Shown in pieces: positions 2,126 to 63,069 of a DNA stretch of 64,000 nucleotides (the first letter of the stretch is position 1; every line of letters starts with the position of its first letter). Position numbers and translations under genes: made by a program. The notes under the pieces were generated by a model that was given only the letters and a program-made list of their open reading frames with translations, did no database searches and was not told where the DNA came from. Source of the stretch: Natrialba sp. SSL1 (GTDB lineage Archaea; Halobacteriota; Halobacteria; Halobacteriales; Natrialbaceae); contig NZ_MASN01000030.1 of assembly GCF_001861355.1 (NCBI RefSeq), positions 186,001-250,000 on the forward strand. Reading direction: 5' to 3'.

Positions 2126-2952
2126 GCAACGGTCCTCCCGACCCCGACGTCGAGCAGCTCCAGCTAGCAGTCTCGGATAGTCCGCGACCGTCGCGTCCCA
2201 GCGCGGTCTCCGCCTCACTGACGTTCGGCTGGCGCGCGCTGTTGAAGATCAAGCACGTGCCCGAACAGCTGTTCGACGTTACCGTCTTCCCGATCATGTT
2301 CCTATTGCTGTTCACCTACCTGTTCGGCGGTGCGCTGGCCGGGTCGACGGATGCGTACCTGCAGGAACTCCTGCCAGGAATTCTGGCGATGACCGTCGTC
2401 TTCATCACGATTTACACCGGCGTCACGCTGAACGACGATATCGACGAGGGCGTCTTTGACCGGTTCCGAACGATACCGGTCTGGCAGCCGTCGGTCATCG
2501 TCGGTGCCCTGCTCGGCGACGCCGTCAGGTACACTATCGCCTCGACGCTCGTGATCGTTCTCGGCGTCGCGCTCGGCTTTCGGCCCGCAGGCGGCATCGT
2601 TGGCGTCCTCGCGGCGGTCGCGTTACTCCTGGTGTTCTCGTTCAGCCTCTCGTGGATCTGGACGGCGCTCGGCTTCGTCATGCGGACGCCCGAATCTCTC
2701 ATGGGCGTCAGTATGCTGATTCTGTTCCCGCTGACGTTCGTCAGCAACGTCTTCGTCGACCCGCGAACGATGCCGGGTTGGCTCGAAGCGTTCGTCGCGA
2801 TCAATCCGGTCAGCCACCTCGTCACGGCCATGCGTGGGCTGATGCACGGCACCGCGACGGCCGGCGAGGTCGGTATCGTCCTCCTGCTGTCCGTGGCGCT
2901 CGTCGTCGTTTTCGGTCCGCTCACCATGTACCTCTTCCGCGCGCAGCAGTAG
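2122..2952 (+). CDS. ABC-2 type exporter permease (DrrB-like)
   Basis: This 276-residue membrane subunit pairs with the preceding ATPase, overlapping it by four bases. A cytoplasmic N-terminus is followed by about six hydrophobic helices, with the ABC-2 family pattern: [11 protein letters not shown] in helix 2, DRFRTIPV in the coupling region, and an [24 protein letters not shown] segment (split here by its key residues PGW and NP) before the last helix. Together the two proteins should form a dimeric efflux pump for a lipophilic compound. The substrate cannot be read from the sequence. Confidence 0.9.
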
Positions 2953-3024
2953 TCGGCCACTCTGCTGCTCGGCTCTCTCGGCGCGCAGCGAAAAAGTGAT
3001 GGTCATCCTACCTGTCTACGGACC

Positions 3025-3459
3025 ATGAGCGACGTACACGAACCGAACACTGCACAGTTCGAGGACGGCCCCATCACACCCGAGCGAATCGCTGCGGCGG
3101 TGGGACTCGTCGATATCGGTGTCTTCGCCGTCCTCGGCCACTTCCTGTTCGAGGACCCCGCAATCGGCGCGCTCGCCGGCCTCTTCGTCGGCGGCGGTAT
3201 CTACCTCTTTCTCCCGCTGTTCATGTGGGCCGAGCCAAACGACGGTCTCGAGAATATGGTTCCCGAGAACGGCGGCGGTCCGTTTCGCTCGTTGCACCGG
3301 CTCGCGGCCGGTATGGCGCTCCCGCCCGCCGGCATCGTCCTGTTTACCACGCAGTTCGTCGAGCTCGATCCGTTCTTCGGACTCGCCGTAGCGCTCCTCG
3401 CCGGTGTCGGCCTCTACGTCCCGCTCGCGTGGCTGCTCCCGAACGCCCAACTCGAGTAG
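3025..3459 (+). CDS. Small four-helix membrane protein, unknown function
   Basis: This 144-residue protein has an acidic N-terminal 30 residues followed by four hydrophobic stretches (about residues 32-48, 52-72, 96-112 and 118-138). A short polar loop between helices 2 and 3 contains PNDGLENMVPENGGG. It starts 72 bases after the ABC permease and could be co-transcribed with it. I do not recognise a characterised family; it looks like a conserved haloarchaeal hypothetical membrane protein. Confidence 0.75.
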   Translation: MSDVHEPNTAQFEDGPITPERIAAAVGLVDIGVFAVLGHFLFEDPAIGALAGLFVGGGIYLFLPLFMWAEPNDGLENMVPENGGGPFRSLHRLAAGMALPPAGIVLFTTQFVELDPFFGLAVALLAGVGLYVPLAWLLPNAQLE

Positions 3460-3555
3460 CCGGACGCTGCGCCAGCCTGTACCCCTGCTCGCCACCCATC
3501 CCGGGTTGCGCCTGCCGGTCAGCCGCTTTTGCTCACTGGTCAGGTAGGCCGACCC

Positions 3556-5049
3556 ATGACGGAGCTTCCCCTTTCTCCCGACGCCGGAACCGACGCGGAG
3601 ACCGACGGCTGGAACGCGCTGTACCTCGCCGGTAAGTGGACCGACCAGGGCGATCGCGACTCGATTTCCGTCGAGAATCCCTACACACGCGAGGAGCTCA
3701 CGACGGTCCCCGCCGGCACGCCCGACGACGTGGACCAAGCCTACGAAGCCGCTGCAGCGGCACAAGAACAGTGGGCCGACCAGCCACCACAGGGTCGCGC
3801 CCAGGTCGTCACCGCCGCACTCGAGTTCGTCCGCGACAATCGCGAGGCGGTACTCGAGTTGCTCGCGCTCGAGGCGGGGAGCGCGCGGGTCAAGGGCGTC
3901 GCCGAGATCCAGACGGCGACGGGGATGATGCAGCAGGCGGCGAGTTTTCCGTTCCGAATGGACGGCCAGCAGACGGAATCGATCGTCCCGGGGAAGGAGA
4001 ATACGGTCGAACGCGTCCCGGTCGGCGTCGTCGGCGTAATCTCGCCGTGGAACTTCCCGCTGCACCTCTCGATGCGGGCGGTCGCGCCGGCGATCGCGGC
4101 TGGCAACGGTGTCGTGCTCAAGCCGGCCTCGAACACGCCGATCACGGGCGGTCTTTTGCTGGCCCGCATCTTTGAAGAAGCGGGCGCGCCGGAAGGACTG
4201 ATTAGCGTCGTCCCCGGTTCTGGCTCCGAAATCGGCGACGAAATTGCTGGCCACGATATCCCGCGCGTGGTCGCGTTCACCGGTTCGACACCGGTCGGCC
4301 TCTCCGTCGCCGAGCAGGCCGCGGGCAACTGTGCGCTCCCGGCGCTCGAACTCGGCGGGAACAACGTTCACGTCGTCACCGACCGAGCAGACGTCGAACA
4401 GGCCGCCGACGCCGGTGCCTTCGGCTCGTTCCTCCACCAGGGCCAGATCTGCATCTCGGCCAACCGCCACCTCGTCCACGAGGAGGTCTACGACGAGTAC
4501 GTCGACCAGTTGGCCGAGCGCGCCGCGAGCCTGCCGACGGGCGACCCGACCGACGAGGAGACGATCATCGGCCCGATCATCGACGAAAGCCAGCGCGACC
4601 AGATTATCGAATACATCGAGGACACCGTCGCGGAGGGTGCCACACTCGAGGCCGGCGGCGACCACGACGGCCTCGTCGTCGAACCGACTGTGCTCGCCGA
4701 CGCCGACAACGACATGCCCGCCGCCTGCAACGAGCACTTCGGCCCGGTCGCGCCAGTGATTCCGTACTCGAGTACTGAGGAAGCGATCGAACTGGCCAAC
4801 GACACGATTCACGGTCTCTCGGGCTCGGTTCACAGTCAGGATCTTGCCCAGGCGCGCCGGATTGCAGACGGGATCGAGACGGGGATGATTCACATCAACG
4901 ACCAGCCGGTCAACGACGAGCCCCACGTTCCGTTCGGTGGGATGAAACAGTCCGGGCTGGGACGGTACAACGGCGAGTCGATACTCGAGGAGGTGACGAC
5001 GACGAAGTGGATTTCGGTGCAGCGCGAGCCGCGGGAGTATCCGTTCTGA
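3556..5049 (+). CDS. NAD(P)-dependent aldehyde dehydrogenase
   Basis: This 497-residue protein belongs to the aldehyde dehydrogenase superfamily, which oxidises aldehydes to carboxylic acids with NAD(P). Visible motifs are the SPWNFP cofactor loop, KPASNTP, FTGSTPVG, the general-base Glu in LELGGNN, the catalytic Cys in GQICISANR, and the C-terminal HVPFGGMKQSGLGR. The HINDQPVNDEPHVPFGG segment is typical of the benzaldehyde/vanillin dehydrogenase-like branch, but the substrate is an inference. The ATG at 3556 is chosen over an upstream TTG (3529) because it is an AUG and the added residues are not family-like. It is a single-gene unit. Confidence 0.93.
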   Translation: MTELPLSPDAGTDAETDGWNALYLAGKWTDQGDRDSISVENPYTREELTTVPAGTPDDVDQAYEAAAAAQEQWADQPPQGRAQVVTAALEFVRDNREAVLELLALEAGSARVKGVAEIQTATGMMQQAASFPFRMDGQQTESIVPGKENTVERVPVGVVGVISPWNFPLHLSMRAVAPAIAAGNGVVLKPASNTPITGGLLLARIFEEAGAPEGLISVVPGSGSEIGDEIAGHDIPRVVAFTGSTPVGLSVAEQAAGNCALPALELGGNNVHVVTDRADVEQAADAGAFGSFLHQGQICISANRHLVHEEVYDEYVDQLAERAASLPTGDPTDEETIIGPIIDESQRDQIIEYIEDTVAEGATLEAGGDHDGLVVEPTVLADADNDMPAACNEHFGPVAPVIPYSSTEEAIELANDTIHGLSGSVHSQDLAQARRIADGIETGMIHINDQPVNDEPHVPFGGMKQSGLGRYNGESILEEVTTTKWISVQREPREYPF

Positions 5050-27363: not shown

Positions 27364-28251
27364 ATGCAAGTCACGGTACTCGGAGCCGGCAGTATGGGCC
27401 ACGGAATCGCACAGGTCTCCGCGATGGCGGGCTACGATGTCGTCCTGCGAGACATCGAGGACGACCTCGTCGAGAAGGGACTCGAGGGCATTCGCGAGAA
27501 CCTCCAGGGCGGCGTCGACCGGGACAAATTGACTGCAGACGAGATGGACGCCACACTCGAGCGCATCGAGGGGATGACCGACCTCGCCGACGCCGTCGCC
27601 AATGCCGACCTCGTCATCGAGGCCGTCCCCGAGGACATGGACCTGAAGAAGGACGTTCTCTCCGACGTGGAGGCCGAAACCGGCGAGGAGACGGTAATCG
27701 CCTCGAACACGTCCTCGCTCTCCGTGACTGAAATGGCGAGTGCACTCGAGTCCCCCGAGCGCGTCGTCGGGCTGCACTTCTTCAATCCGCCGCATCTGAT
27801 GGACCTGGTCGAGATCGTGATCGCGGAGCAGACCGACGACCGGACCGAGGAGTTCGCGGTTGACTACGTCCGCGAGATCGAGAAAGAGGATGTCGTGGTT
27901 CGCGACAGCGCCGGCTTCGCGACCTCGCGACTGGGGCTCGTGACGGGACTCGAAGCGATCCGGATGGTCGAGGAAGGTGTCGCCAGCCCGGCGGACATCG
28001 ACGAGGCGATGAAACTCGGCTACGGCTACCCGATGGGCCCGATCGAACTCGGCGACCACGTCGGTCTCGACGTGCGCCTGCACATCGCCGAACATCTCCG
28101 CGAGGAACTCGGCGAGCGGTTCAAGCCACCGCAGGCGCTGCGCCGGAAGGTTCGCGCGGGCAACCTCGGCCGGAAGTCCGGCGAGGGCTTCTACGTCTGG
28201 GAGGACGGCGAGCGCGTCGGCATGAGCGGCGAGTGGGGTGCGGACGAATGA
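27364..28251 (+). CDS. 3-hydroxyacyl-CoA dehydrogenase
   Basis: This 295-residue enzyme oxidises 3-hydroxyacyl-CoA to 3-ketoacyl-CoA with NAD. The N-terminal Rossmann fold has GAGSMGHGIA at residues 7-16, followed by SNTSSLSVTEMA, the catalytic His in GLHFFNPPHLMDLVE, and the C-terminal helical domain (GYGYPMGPIEL, KSGEGFYVWEDG). An upstream GTG (27349) is less likely than ATG 27364. The stop overlaps the enoyl-CoA hydratase start (ATGA), so the two beta-oxidation enzymes are co-translated. Confidence 0.95.
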   Translation: MQVTVLGAGSMGHGIAQVSAMAGYDVVLRDIEDDLVEKGLEGIRENLQGGVDRDKLTADEMDATLERIEGMTDLADAVANADLVIEAVPEDMDLKKDVLSDVEAETGEETVIASNTSSLSVTEMASALESPERVVGLHFFNPPHLMDLVEIVIAEQTDDRTEEFAVDYVREIEKEDVVVRDSAGFATSRLGLVTGLEAIRMVEEGVASPADIDEAMKLGYGYPMGPIELGDHVGLDVRLHIAEHLREELGERFKPPQALRRKVRAGNLGRKSGEGFYVWEDGERVGMSGEWGADE

Positions 28252-29063
28252 GTGACCTCGCTGCGCTCGAGACCGAACTCGAACTCGTTTCCGTCTCAGT
28301 CGGCGAGCACGCCGAGAAGGTCGCGACGGTCGCGATCGAGCGTCCTGACGCACGGAACGCGCTCAACGGCCAGGTTCGCACGGAACTAAAGGAGGCCGTC
28401 GCGGCTGCTGAGGACGACGATGCCGTGCGTGTGCTGGTGCTCACTGGCGGCGAGGGCTCTGGCGCGTTCGTCGCCGGCGCGGACGTGACGGAGTTCAAAG
28501 ACCGCAGCCTCGTCGAGCAGCGCGAGGCCAGCGAGCGCCCGCGGGTCTACGAGACCGTCGACGATGCTTCGATCCCAGTCATCGCACGGATCAACGGCCA
28601 CGCGCTCGGCGGTGGCTGCGAACTCGCACAGGCCTGTGACGTTCGCATCGCCGCCGAGGGTTCGAAACTCGGCCAGCCCGAGATTAACCTCGGCCTCATT
28701 CCGGGCGGCGGCGGCACCCAGCGCCTCGCCCGCCTCGTCGGTGAGGGCCAGGCGATGCGGCTGATCCTCTCGGGCGACCTGATCGACGCCCAGGAGGCTC
28801 ACGAGATCGGTCTCGTGGACGAAGTCCACGACGCGGACGACCTGGACGACACCATCTACGACCTTGCCGAATCGATGGCAGCCAAGAGTCCGATCGCACT
28901 CGAGTTCGCCAAGAACGCGGTGAAGGCTGGTTCGCGGATGGGACTCGAGGAGGGGCTCGACTACGAGTCGGAGCTGTTCGTACAGCTGTTTGCGACCAAA
29001 GACAAGGACGAGGGCATCGAGGCGTTCCTCGAGAAGCGCGAGCCGGAGTTCACGGGCGAGTAA
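28248..29063 (+). CDS. Enoyl-CoA hydratase/isomerase
   Basis: This 271-residue crotonase-family protein has GAFVAGADVTEF (oxyanion hole), NGHALGGGCELAQACD, and the IPGGGGTQRLARLVG segment. In hydratases a catalytic Glu occurs in the GGCELA region; the second Glu of the pair is not obvious. It adds water to trans-2-enoyl-CoA. It overlaps the dehydrogenase gene by four bases, and a long nested palindrome begins at its stop codon. Confidence 0.93.
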   Translation: MSDLAALETELELVSVSVGEHAEKVATVAIERPDARNALNGQVRTELKEAVAAAEDDDAVRVLVLTGGEGSGAFVAGADVTEFKDRSLVEQREASERPRVYETVDDASIPVIARINGHALGGGCELAQACDVRIAAEGSKLGQPEINLGLIPGGGGTQRLARLVGEGQAMRLILSGDLIDAQEAHEIGLVDEVHDADDLDDTIYDLAESMAAKSPIALEFAKNAVKAGSRMGLEEGLDYESELFVQLFATKDKDEGIEAFLEKREPEFTGE

Positions 29064-29172
29064 TACTGCCGGACAGAAGTCAGTGAGAAGTCGGTCGCGA
29101 AGTCGCGGCCATCTCCGAAGGTGATGGCCGTAGTAGCGCGACCGATCTTCGAATAGTTCTGTCCGACAGTAT
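29063..29172. repeat. 110-bp nested palindromic element (MITE-like or RNA hairpin)
   Basis: The outer arms 29063-29078 and 29157-29172 pair at 15 of 16 positions. Inside them TCGGTCGCG (29091-29099) pairs with CGCGACCGA (29137-29145). At the core CGGCCATC (29106-29113) pairs with GATGGCCG (29123-29130) around a 9-base loop. The element starts in the stop codon of the hydratase gene. It could be a terminator structure or a miniature inverted-repeat element. Confidence 0.75.
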
Positions 29173-29536
29173 ACGAAGCGCGCCGCCGTTCTCTTCACAG
29201 CATTCTCCTTTCTGACACCACGGTCAATAGGTGCTCGATCAAATATGTCGGGCCTGGGGGTAGACGAGTAACTCCTCGATGGGAAGGGGTACTCAGGAGC
29301 GTCAAAAACACGTTCAGTGGATAATTGGTGTCGACAGACGACTACACAGGACAGGGATCTTAAGATGGTGATTTCCCGGCCTCTGACTCTCAAATTCAGC
29401 GTCCTCGATGAGGTCTGAGAGATAATTGACTGAATGAGTTGTCCATAAAATACGTATATTTGAGTAGTGATATCTCTGGCCGCTATCGTGATGGCGGAGC
29501 AGTCACTCCCGGCACGGTATCTTTCCGCAAAGGACG
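29173..29536. other. Intergenic region without a supported gene
   Basis: No gene, tRNA or IS end is recognised here. Codon character is absent and the base composition is less GC-rich than in the flanking genes, especially at 29410-29470 (AAATACGTATATTTGAG). The region may be a relic or carry regulatory DNA for the oxidase gene. Confidence 0.4.
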
Positions 29537-60594: not shown

Positions 60595-63069
60595 TTACTG
60601 TTCCTGTTCGGGCTCACGAGCCTGTTCGCGCTCGTCAGCCGCCTCCTCGCGGTCGGTTCCACGCTCACGGCCGATGTCAAACTCCTCCGGGGCGAGCAGA
60701 AGCTTGATCCGCTCGACCTGCCAGCCCTCGAGATCGGCTGGCTCGTCCGAAACGACGAGCGGCTTTGCAATTTCGGCCCGGGATCCGCGGTCGACGCCAC
60801 CGGTGGCCGCGCGCGTGTTGCACAGTCTGGCACCGGACTCCGAGAGCACGACATCCGAGTCCACCCAGATCATCTGCCCGCCATCCGTCACTTCCGCTGC
60901 CGGCTCGACTCGCTCGTCCGCCGGTTCGTTGCGGTGATCCGGATCCGTCGTATCCGCCTCTGCCTCCTCGATGAAGATTTTCTGTGCGCCGCTGGACTCG
61001 AGTTCGGTGTCGCCCGCCGTTGCGGTCGTCGCTGCTGTCCCATCGGTATCCGCACCCGAGGTCGAGTCGACCTCGCTGTCACCGTCGGTCTGGTCGGTCG
61101 AGGCGGTCTCGTCTCCCGCAGCCGCGAACGGATCGAGCGGTTCGTCCGTAGTGAACTCGAGTTCGATGTCGTCTGCATCGGCAGTGCCATCGGCACCGTC
61201 TTCGATAGATGTCTCGTCCTCGAATGTCCCCTCGGGAGAGTCGTGGGTGTCGTGGGTGTCGTGGGTGTCGAGTGCACCGTCAGCGTGCTCGCCGGCGTCC
61301 GTCACTGCAACCGATTCAGGGGCAGACTCGTGGTTGGTGGTGGTAGCAGTCGATTCGTCGAAGGTGAGTTCTGCGCCGGAAGCGCCGGCAGCCAGTTCGT
61401 CCGTCTCGGTTGTAGCCGACACGTCGTCGACTGGTGGCGCTGTGTCCGAGTCGGGGGACGTGCCGGTCTCGCTGGACTTGTCGGTCTCAGCCGTCTCCGC
61501 CTCTGGCCGGTGTTGCTCAGCCGCGGCCATCGCCTGTTCGACCGTGATACCTTCGTCTTCGACCCACACGTCGAACGGCCGGCGCTTCTTTTCCGGCGTC
61601 GCGATCTGGCTGATCCACCAGAGGCTTCGCTTGTGGTCGACGCCGAGCGAGGAGTGCGGTTCCGGGTCGCCGATGTCCGGGCCGCCGCCGAATCCGTTCA
61701 ACACCGTCTGGAGGTGTGACTCGACCGACGTGCTCACCCAGTGGATCGACTCGTAGAAACAAAGCGTCCGGGCCGCGCCGTTGAGACCCAGTTCGGAGAC
61801 CAGGTACTCGAGCCAGTCCATGACGACGAACTCGGTGTCGTACTCGGAGGGAATGGTTTCGAGATATGGGCGGCCGCCGTCGTCCCACACCGGGTGTTCG
61901 AGGCTGTCGGGGGCGTGTTCCGTGGAATCGTCGGTCGTGAGGGGATCGGCGTTGGTGTCGGTACCAGCATCAGCGTCGCCAGCAGCATCTGCATCGACGT
62001 CGTCGATCAACGAGGTCTCATCCGTCGACTCGTCATCGACTGCGAGGTCGTCAGCAAACGACTCGTCGTCGAGGTCGTCCTCGAGTGGATCCGTCCCTTC
62101 TGTGGCGCTCTGGTCCGCTGGCTCGTTGCCACCGTCCTCAGCCCCCGCCGCTGCATCGCCGTCCCAGTCGGCGTCGCCGGAGTCGTATTCGGATTTCAGT
62201 TCATCGAACGACAGGTCATCGTCACCACCGGAGTCAGCGTTCGCATCGAGGTCGTCGTCTGCGTCTGCGTCCATGCTCATATCGTCCTCCAGGTCGTCGA
62301 ACTCGTCGTCATCCTCGAACTCCTCATCGTCGTCGATGATGCTCTCGTCCAGGAAATCGTCGGCTTCGGCGTTCGCGATATCCTCATCGATCGCCTCGTC
62401 CTCCTCGTCGCCGTCGTTACTGTCGAACAGACTCTGTCCGCCGAAATCGCCGCTTCCAGCGGCACCGCCGCCGGCCATCGAATCAGTGAGGGTATCGCCC
62501 TCGACGAACGGGTTGACACCCTGGGTCACCATCTCGTAGACCTCGAGGAGTTTCCGGATGTTCTCCTCGATATCGTCGAGCGATTCGCTGATCTTTTCGT
62601 TCTCGCTCTGGACGGTGTTCACCGTCGAAGAAAGCGAGCCGACGCTGTTCTCCATCTCTTCGACGCGCGCTTCGACCTCACTCGAGACGGTGCCGCCGCC
62701 GTCGTCCATGGCGTCCATCCCGTCCATCGACCCCATATCGTCCATATCACCCATCTCGGACATCTCGCCCATGCCGTCCATCGACATCGAGTCGTCGTCG
62801 AGGAAGTCATCCCCACCGCCGTCGAGATCGCCGTCGAGGTCACCGCCGAGGTCGCCATCGTCAAAGAGATCGTCGTTACCGGTGCCATCGCCGCCGTTCC
62901 CCCCGGCGGCGCTCTCAGTTCGCGCACCTGGGAGCAACTCGTCGTCGCTCATGCTGCCGGCGAGGTCACCACCGATGATGTCGTCGCTATCGTTCCCGGA
63001 GTTCGAGCGACCACTGGCGCCGTCGCCATCGCCGTCTCCGAGTATGTTGCCGATTATCGAGAGTACCAT
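60595..63069 (-). CDS. arlCDE: Fused archaellum cytosolic ring protein ArlC/D/E
   Basis: This 824-residue acidic protein contains an ArlC-like coiled coil at about 128-190 (VEARVEEMENSVGSL, LLEVYEMVTQGVNPFVE) and an ArlD/E domain at about 398-490 (YLETIPSEYDTEFVVMDWLEYL, FYESIHWVST, SLWWISQIA). These regions recruit chemotaxis signals and sit around the motor. Between and after them lie long disordered Asp-rich segments, with a Met/Asp/Gly repeat at about 94-122. About 330 residues follow the ArlD/E domain, with a conserved-looking end (GGQMIWVDSDVVLSE, WQVERIKLLLAPEEFD). It is longer than single ArlC, D or E proteins because of fusion and linkers. Confidence 0.92.
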   Translation of the reverse strand: MVLSIIGNILGDGDGDGASGRSNSGNDSDDIIGGDLAGSMSDDELLPGARTESAAGGNGGDGTGNDDLFDDGDLGGDLDGDLDGGGDDFLDDDSMSMDGMGEMSEMGDMDDMGSMDGMDAMDDGGGTVSSEVEARVEEMENSVGSLSSTVNTVQSENEKISESLDDIEENIRKLLEVYEMVTQGVNPFVEGDTLTDSMAGGGAAGSGDFGGQSLFDSNDGDEEDEAIDEDIANAEADDFLDESIIDDDEEFEDDDEFDDLEDDMSMDADADDDLDANADSGGDDDLSFDELKSEYDSGDADWDGDAAAGAEDGGNEPADQSATEGTDPLEDDLDDESFADDLAVDDESTDETSLIDDVDADAAGDADAGTDTNADPLTTDDSTEHAPDSLEHPVWDDGGRPYLETIPSEYDTEFVVMDWLEYLVSELGLNGAARTLCFYESIHWVSTSVESHLQTVLNGFGGGPDIGDPEPHSSLGVDHKRSLWWISQIATPEKKRRPFDVWVEDEGITVEQAMAAAEQHRPEAETAETDKSSETGTSPDSDTAPPVDDVSATTETDELAAGASGAELTFDESTATTTNHESAPESVAVTDAGEHADGALDTHDTHDTHDSPEGTFEDETSIEDGADGTADADDIELEFTTDEPLDPFAAAGDETASTDQTDGDSEVDSTSGADTDGTAATTATAGDTELESSGAQKIFIEEAEADTTDPDHRNEPADERVEPAAEVTDGGQMIWVDSDVVLSESGARLCNTRAATGGVDRGSRAEIAKPLVVSDEPADLEGWQVERIKLLLAPEEFDIGRERGTDREEAADEREQAREPEQEQ

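Follow-up and report, generated by a model that had tools for sequence, protein, structure and literature searches.

A 108-bp palindromic element at the stop codon of a Natrialba enoyl-CoA hydratase gene: a very probable MITE with a TNA target duplication

In the window (the whole 64,000-nucleotide stretch of Natrialba DNA analyzed here), a 3-hydroxyacyl-CoA dehydrogenase gene precedes a gene for enoyl-CoA hydratase, and directly after the TAA stop codon of the latter lies a large palindrome. The original prediction described outer, middle and inner arms that pair over 110 bases from within the stop codon, and proposed either a miniature non-autonomous transposable element (MITE) or a structured RNA at the end of the operon. 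Which of the two is it, and how did it come to lie exactly at a stop codon? The evidence described below indicates that the palindrome is very probably a 108-bp MITE, which is a DNA transposon unable to move by its own means. Its target, its mobilizing enzyme and its frequent location in stop codons are considered in turn.

Extent, ends and fold of the element

The features of the locus are as follows.

28233-29063, + strand: host gene, enoyl-CoA hydratase (PF00378), with intact reading frame and stop codon kept; orthologues in 6/6 congeners
29061-29063, + strand: left copy of the putative target duplication, TAA, which is the host stop codon
29064-29171, no strand assigned: mobile element, with boundaries from its copies and the congener empty site
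29064-29078, + strand: left terminal inverted repeat TACTGCCGGACAGAA, of which 14/15 positions pair with the right end
29087-29099, + strand: middle arm, pairing with 29137-29150 (fold and covariation)
29105-29116, + strand: inner arm, pairing with 29120-29131 (fold and covariation)
29120-29131, + strand: partner of the inner arm (fold and covariation)
29137-29150, + strand: partner of the middle arm (fold and covariation)
29157-29171, - strand: right terminal inverted repeat TTCTGTCCGACAGTA (copy conservation and end pairing)
29172-29174, + strand: right copy of the putative target duplication, now TAC (2/3 bases), placed by congener empty sites that read TAA and then GCAGCG or GCAACG

The region 29055-29180 folds with a minimum free energy of -69.5 kcal/mol (z = -9.3), a value equaled by 0/200 dinucleotide shuffles. 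The three tiers of arms were found as predicted, including 15/16 pairs in the outer 16-bp arms, and the start in the stop codon (TAA, 29061-29063) was also correct. A chance palindrome can be discounted for all practical purposes, given that no shuffle folded as well and that copies are dispersed elsewhere. The extent first given to the palindrome was one base too wide on each side (29063 and 29172), because the outermost pair belongs to the TAA/TAC target duplication. The mobile element proper is non-coding, and its ends are near-perfect inverted versions of the common end sequence TACTGYCGGACAGAA. Most positions of this end repeat are at least 90% conserved among 49 non-redundant copies, and the left repeat is nearly palindromic in itself (CTGYCGGACAG). 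A lone degenerate end repeat, TACTGTCGAACAG, lies at 62418-62430, with no mate within the window.

The enoyl-CoA hydratase gene is present, and the element absent from it, in all six congeners of the genus. Downstream DNA could be aligned in two of the six, and both show an unoccupied TAA site. The empty sites read GAG-TAA-GCAGCG or GAG-TAA-GCAACG, and the window reads GAG-TAA-(108 bp)-TAC-GAAGCG. By this alignment, insertion added 108 + 3 bp at the stop codon, and the TAA and TAC flanks are interpreted as a target duplication of 3 bp in which one base has since changed. On the right side, the window copy departs from the empty site at a second base as well: one difference lies in the right duplicate and the other further on.

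Copies, target duplication and the RNA reading

Five copies were recognized in the same genome.

29064-29171 of the window: the copy described above
C60:393156: right end degraded
C52:103820: carries a small internal repeat
C60:221913-221995: 75 bp, detected as two matches because it lacks the central part
C29: diverged, with 141 bp between the ends

Matches at E <= 0.001 were found in 32/100 genomes searched, the own genome included; they comprise 30/61 genomes of the same family and 2/39 from other families in the order. Plasmid records carrying the element numbered 5 and 7 for two queries and came from Natrialba, Natrinema, Natrononativus and Halobiforma. A phage collection gave no match to the window element. 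In viral contigs the end string occurs in 24 and 12 stretches; among the 34 viral loci, loosely matching inverted ends lie within 4 kb of each other in two (L125 and L247), neither with equal flanks. A pattern scan of 84,980 species genomes returned 46 exact-pattern stretches, in haloarchaea, mostly Natrialba, Natrinema, Natronorubrum, Natrarchaeobius, Natronococcus and Haloterrigena. The pattern also occurs in Halorientalis salina and in one Halobacteriales MAG, where the elements have the same ends and different-looking interiors (L087:5588-5697, L091:4878-4987, L081, L085, L111 and L114). Such elements are perhaps separate families served by one mobilizer.

The commonest element lengths are 107-108 bp and 78 bp. 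Both size classes are present in one genome of the family, G050, which holds 219 matches to the end repeat at <=1 mismatch (stretches L171-L175, L188-L189, L234-L238 and L257-L316) and is a case of strong amplification of this repeat. Within the genus, 43 elements fall into 33 site groups, and most positions differ between genomes. Two species share a copy shortened to 75 bp (L004 in the own genome and L343 in G003), placed in both at the stop codon of a gene for 213 aa. This copy was probably inherited, and insertions can therefore persist through speciation. Two contigs of G006 (L326 and L327) each show a pair of elements arranged head-to-tail within ~190 bp; the matches on the two contigs are near-identical and adjoin ambiguous bases (N) in the assembly. 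Three end repeats without a mate (L177, L178 and L187) have the appearance of decayed copies.

What does the element duplicate when it inserts? In the first set of loci, T-N-A flanks were seen on both sides, with the element spanning TACTG to CAGTA and three bases duplicated. The flanks were then counted in 109 candidate pairs of ends, spaced 94-112 bp, from the loci collected. Identical 3-bp flanks occur in 75/109, and the triplet is TNA in 75/75. Shuffled pairing gave a mean of 22.8 and a maximum of 38 equal flanks among 109. Equality over 4 bp was found in 0/109, and control offsets gave 2, 0, 4 and 3 matches. Taken singly, the left flank is TNA in 87/109 and the right flank in 90/109; some of the 34 pairs with unequal flanks are copies that have diverged, and a few are spurious pairings. 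A second set, taken later from G050, contained 45 equal-flank elements, of which 44 have TNA and one CGA. In about half of the cases the target is preceded by C and followed by G, giving C|TNA|G. The imperfect duplication of the window copy, with TAA and TAC as its two flanks, is seen at L001, at the L347/L354/L359 sites and at L330, apparently at least three different sites. At four further places (L196:1501, L212:1499, L214:1499 and L210:1501) a solo 15-bp end repeat stands between TNA triplets, which are equal in 3/4. Since each end is palindromic, the two ends are also direct repeats of one another, and a deletion between them would leave a solo-repeat scar. The solo repeats are probably such scars.

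The palindromes within the element also fit a REP-like repeat moved by a single-strand enzyme (Y1/HUH, of IS200/IS605 or RAYT type). Single-strand insertion proceeds without target duplication. Paired inverted ends with a 3-bp duplication denote a double-strand staggered insertion, which contradicts a REP-like origin and makes it highly improbable, even though IS605-type elements are common in Haloquadratum (PMC3119063).

The other reading first proposed, a structured RNA or 3'-end terminator conserved after operons, would have the fold under selection and the spread incidental. The stability of the foldback is in its favor, as is the placement of many copies directly after stop codons. The hairpin also shows compensatory changes. 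In 49 non-redundant 108-bp copies (mean pairwise identity 0.79), a standard pair is kept in 90.7% of cells, and double changes occur at 18/41 pairs (42 cells). Shuffles gave 8.1 such pairs and 12.3 such cells, and 0/500 were as high as the observed values. Slid controls gave 4-12 pairs and 4-15 cells with double changes. RNAalifold alone predicted no more than 22 pairs, and its covariation term was small (-0.3). The foldback seems to be maintained, whether through selection, acting on DNA or RNA, or through template switching from one arm to the other. Template switching in DNA palindromes can also yield compensatory changes. Several observations speak against the RNA account: the element is missing from 6/6 congener orthologues, TNA is duplicated at 75/109 candidate copies, most positions differ between genomes, and Rfam returned no family at its gathering score (one chance-level match, 16.8 bits vs 55). 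The absence from the congeners and the Rfam result leave no place for a single conserved RNA at the end of this operon, and a conserved single-copy RNA as the origin of the element is ruled out. A structured RNA in the broader sense is very unlikely; given the compensatory changes, a role of the hairpin at RNA 3' ends may exist as a by-product.

The MITE reading brings these results together. The element is short (108 bp) and without a transposase gene, its window copy has terminal inverted repeats matching at 14/15 positions, its target-site duplication has a fixed length (3 bp at 75/109 candidates, 4 bp at none, and TNA in 44/45 equal-flank G050 elements), and its copies are dispersed and accompanied by empty sites. 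The prediction had named multiple copies with target duplications as the mark of a MITE; with the ends corrected, these were found in the form of five own-genome copies, matches in 32/100 genomes, equal TNA flanks at 75/109 pairs and an empty site in congeners.

Search for a mobilizer and comparison with known elements

A MITE is expected to have an autonomous relative that shares its ends. Among the genomes and loci sampled, no autonomous partner with matching ends was found. Two copy-rich genomes whose assemblies are finished or nearly so hold 57 and 26 TNA end-repeat sites (<=2 mismatches). Inverted pairs within 10 kb in both genomes enclose only 78 or 106-108 bp, with the exception of one pair 8378 bp apart. 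This pair was rejected as a parent element, being made of ends from two separate short elements.

Known transposase families were also surveyed. Thirty sampled loci of PF01609 (DDE_Tnp_1) had no matching ends, and the sampled loci of IS6-type transposases (PF13610) had other ends. The IS6-type elements of the own genome end in GGCAC(T/C)GTCTAG, and in some copies these ends have the short string CACTGTC in common with the ends of the window family; 8-bp duplications were seen at 2/4 of these loci (L067 and L069), and the other two lack an 8-bp duplication. PF13340 was detected in 0/12 genomes, with controls matched in 5/14. A de novo search for ends at 34 transposase loci among the matches listed recovered several insertion sequences with duplications of up to 10 bp, and none with the ends of this element.

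A wider search covered all non-viral loci and yielded 770 pairs of loosely matching inverted ends, >200 to 3500 bp apart, seven of which have equal TNA flanks. No transposase was found inside six of these seven (L101, L173, L237, L288, L302 and L312; 11 frames tested). The main reading frames of the six matched histidine kinase, GDPD, alpha/beta hydrolase, PCNA, NmrA, CCA-adding enzyme and SNF symporter, or nothing. Three wide pairs were discarded as candidate parents: L174 and L312 each join ends of two separate miniature elements, and the left end of L288 belongs to a miniature element with its own duplicate. In L312 (positions 2453-4501, from G050) a symporter gene (PF00209) lies between two elements that are both in TTA targets, an arrangement that is either a chance neighborhood or a composite unit.

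The target offers another line of approach. C|TNA|G has been published as the target of the IS5-related PHIS transposons of the NuwaII group, which likewise duplicate 3 bp of TNA (PMC4482050); these are eukaryotic families with their own transposase, and none such was found for the window family in the loci sampled. The 3-bp TNA duplication within C|TNA|G is what would be expected of a MITE mobilized by an IS5/PHIS enzyme. Bacterial IS5 elements of the IS1031/IS427 type are TNA users as well. Target and duplication point to a mobilizing enzyme of IS5/PHIS type, with about an even chance of this being so.

How does the family compare with other small repeats? Prokaryotic MITEs are likewise short, non-coding and multicopy, with terminal inverted repeats and target duplication, according to a review (PMC10969869). 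The window family differs from them in having no same-end autonomous partner identified and in being unusually frequent in stop codons. The small mobile repeats SMR-A of Haloquadratum walsbyi (HqIRS42, 43 and 55), compared by description only, are also ~110 bp long with inverted ends that match no known transposon, and their mobilization is enigmatic (PMC3119063). An SMR-A-like identity is nonetheless unlikely: SMR-A is reported to duplicate no target bases and to insert into PATEs or elements of IS605 type, whereas the TNA duplication is clear in the window family and, of 74 insertions classed as coding, intergenic or stop-codon, 70 lie in stop codons or intergenic DNA. The two readings overlap, since the duplication of SMR-A may have been overlooked and the elements may be of one kind. 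No description of the haloarchaeal family was found in the literature searched, which was mostly open-access text; exact 12-mers of the ends occurred there only in a single paper, an unrelated one on zebrafish. As a kind of element the family is ordinary, but two of its traits are uncommon: no partner with matching ends has been found so far, and it heavily occupies stop codons.

Occupancy of stop codons and its meaning

Each of the five copies recognized in the own genome falls precisely on the stop codon of a different real gene. Two of these codons are TAA, in the genes for enoyl-CoA hydratase and a family 2 glycosyltransferase, and three are TGA, in the genes for a HAD hydrolase, a CYTH-domain protein and a class I tRNA synthetase of W/Y type that is interpreted as TyrRS. 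For a broader count, genes were called with a codon model trained in this analysis, not taken from annotation, after the element and one duplicate had been removed. It replaces a crude count of 42/109 stops against 107/889 in controls, which had used any open frame. The count covers 74 equal-flank copies, the locus of the 75th being too short. Of these insertions, 26 are at called stops, 44 intergenic and 4 coding, and the other TNA sites of the same loci number 321, 3455 and 7986, respectively. Among noncoding sites, stops thus account for 26/70 insertions vs 321/3776 other TNA sites (OR 6.4, p 8e-11). G050 alone has 14 stop, 28 intergenic and 3 coding insertions vs 160, 1759 and 3724 TNA sites, with a stop excess among noncoding sites of OR 5.5 (p 6.5e-6). 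The two sets overlap, because the all-loci set includes some G050 loci. Across the genus, stops make up 10/31 noncoding site groups vs 114/2195 (OR 8.7, p 3e-6), in a count that used looser end matching, scored a group as stop if any member was, and missed three of the own copies (L002, L003 and L005), for which the hand examination stands instead. The equal-flank requirement may itself lean slightly toward stop codons, where selection acts on one of the duplicates.

The over-occupancy of stop codons by the element is judged to be real. How much of the excess is target preference? A model for G050 with context (scored from non-stop insertions only) and proximity to starts and 3' ends retained a stop coefficient of 1.33 (OR 3.8, likelihood-ratio p 0.005). 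The strictest comparison kept only sites that follow a stop by <=60 bp and are >100 bp away from any start. It gave OR 2.7 (p 0.016) for all loci, and no significant excess for G050 alone (OR 1.8, p 0.22). The context strata are uneven, with no stop excess in the 0.5-1.5 stratum or among the 3 insertions of the lowest. These results are read as showing that GC-rich context next to TNA, together with loss of promoter-damaging insertions, explains much of the excess; a real preference for stop codons possibly contributes in part.

The proposed course of events is as follows. A trans-acting DDE transposase, most likely of IS5/PIF-Harbinger (PHIS) type, would bind the palindromic end repeats and insert the element at C|TNA|G with a 3-bp stagger. 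Since the target is TNA, one duplicate would restore a TAA or TGA stop and the host protein would be unaltered, and the hairpin would become the 3' end of the host gene transcript. The frequent stop-codon location would reflect partly sequence context and the purging of harmful insertions, and possibly partly target preference. A more speculative proposal, held only tentatively, is a stop-seeking non-autonomous transposon whose mobilizer recognizes or is guided to the 3' ends of genes. The element would enter there and regenerate TAA or TGA at almost no cost, giving its hosts a hairpin 3' end, and its transposase would perhaps be unrecognized or domesticated and act only in trans.

Three points deserve attention: the TNA target, the missing mobilizer and the stop-codon bias. 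That no same-end partner was found despite up to 219 end-repeat matches per genome sharpens the mobilizer question raised by the SMRs of Haloquadratum. For annotation, the family explains hairpins directly after stop codons in Natrialbaceae without a regulatory RNA. If the stop-codon bias reflects real targeting, it would be a simple route for a transposon into a gene-dense archaeal genome that leaves genes unbroken. The family would then also offer a natural system in which to study how insertion maps arise from selection, sequence context and a target rule of 3 bp.
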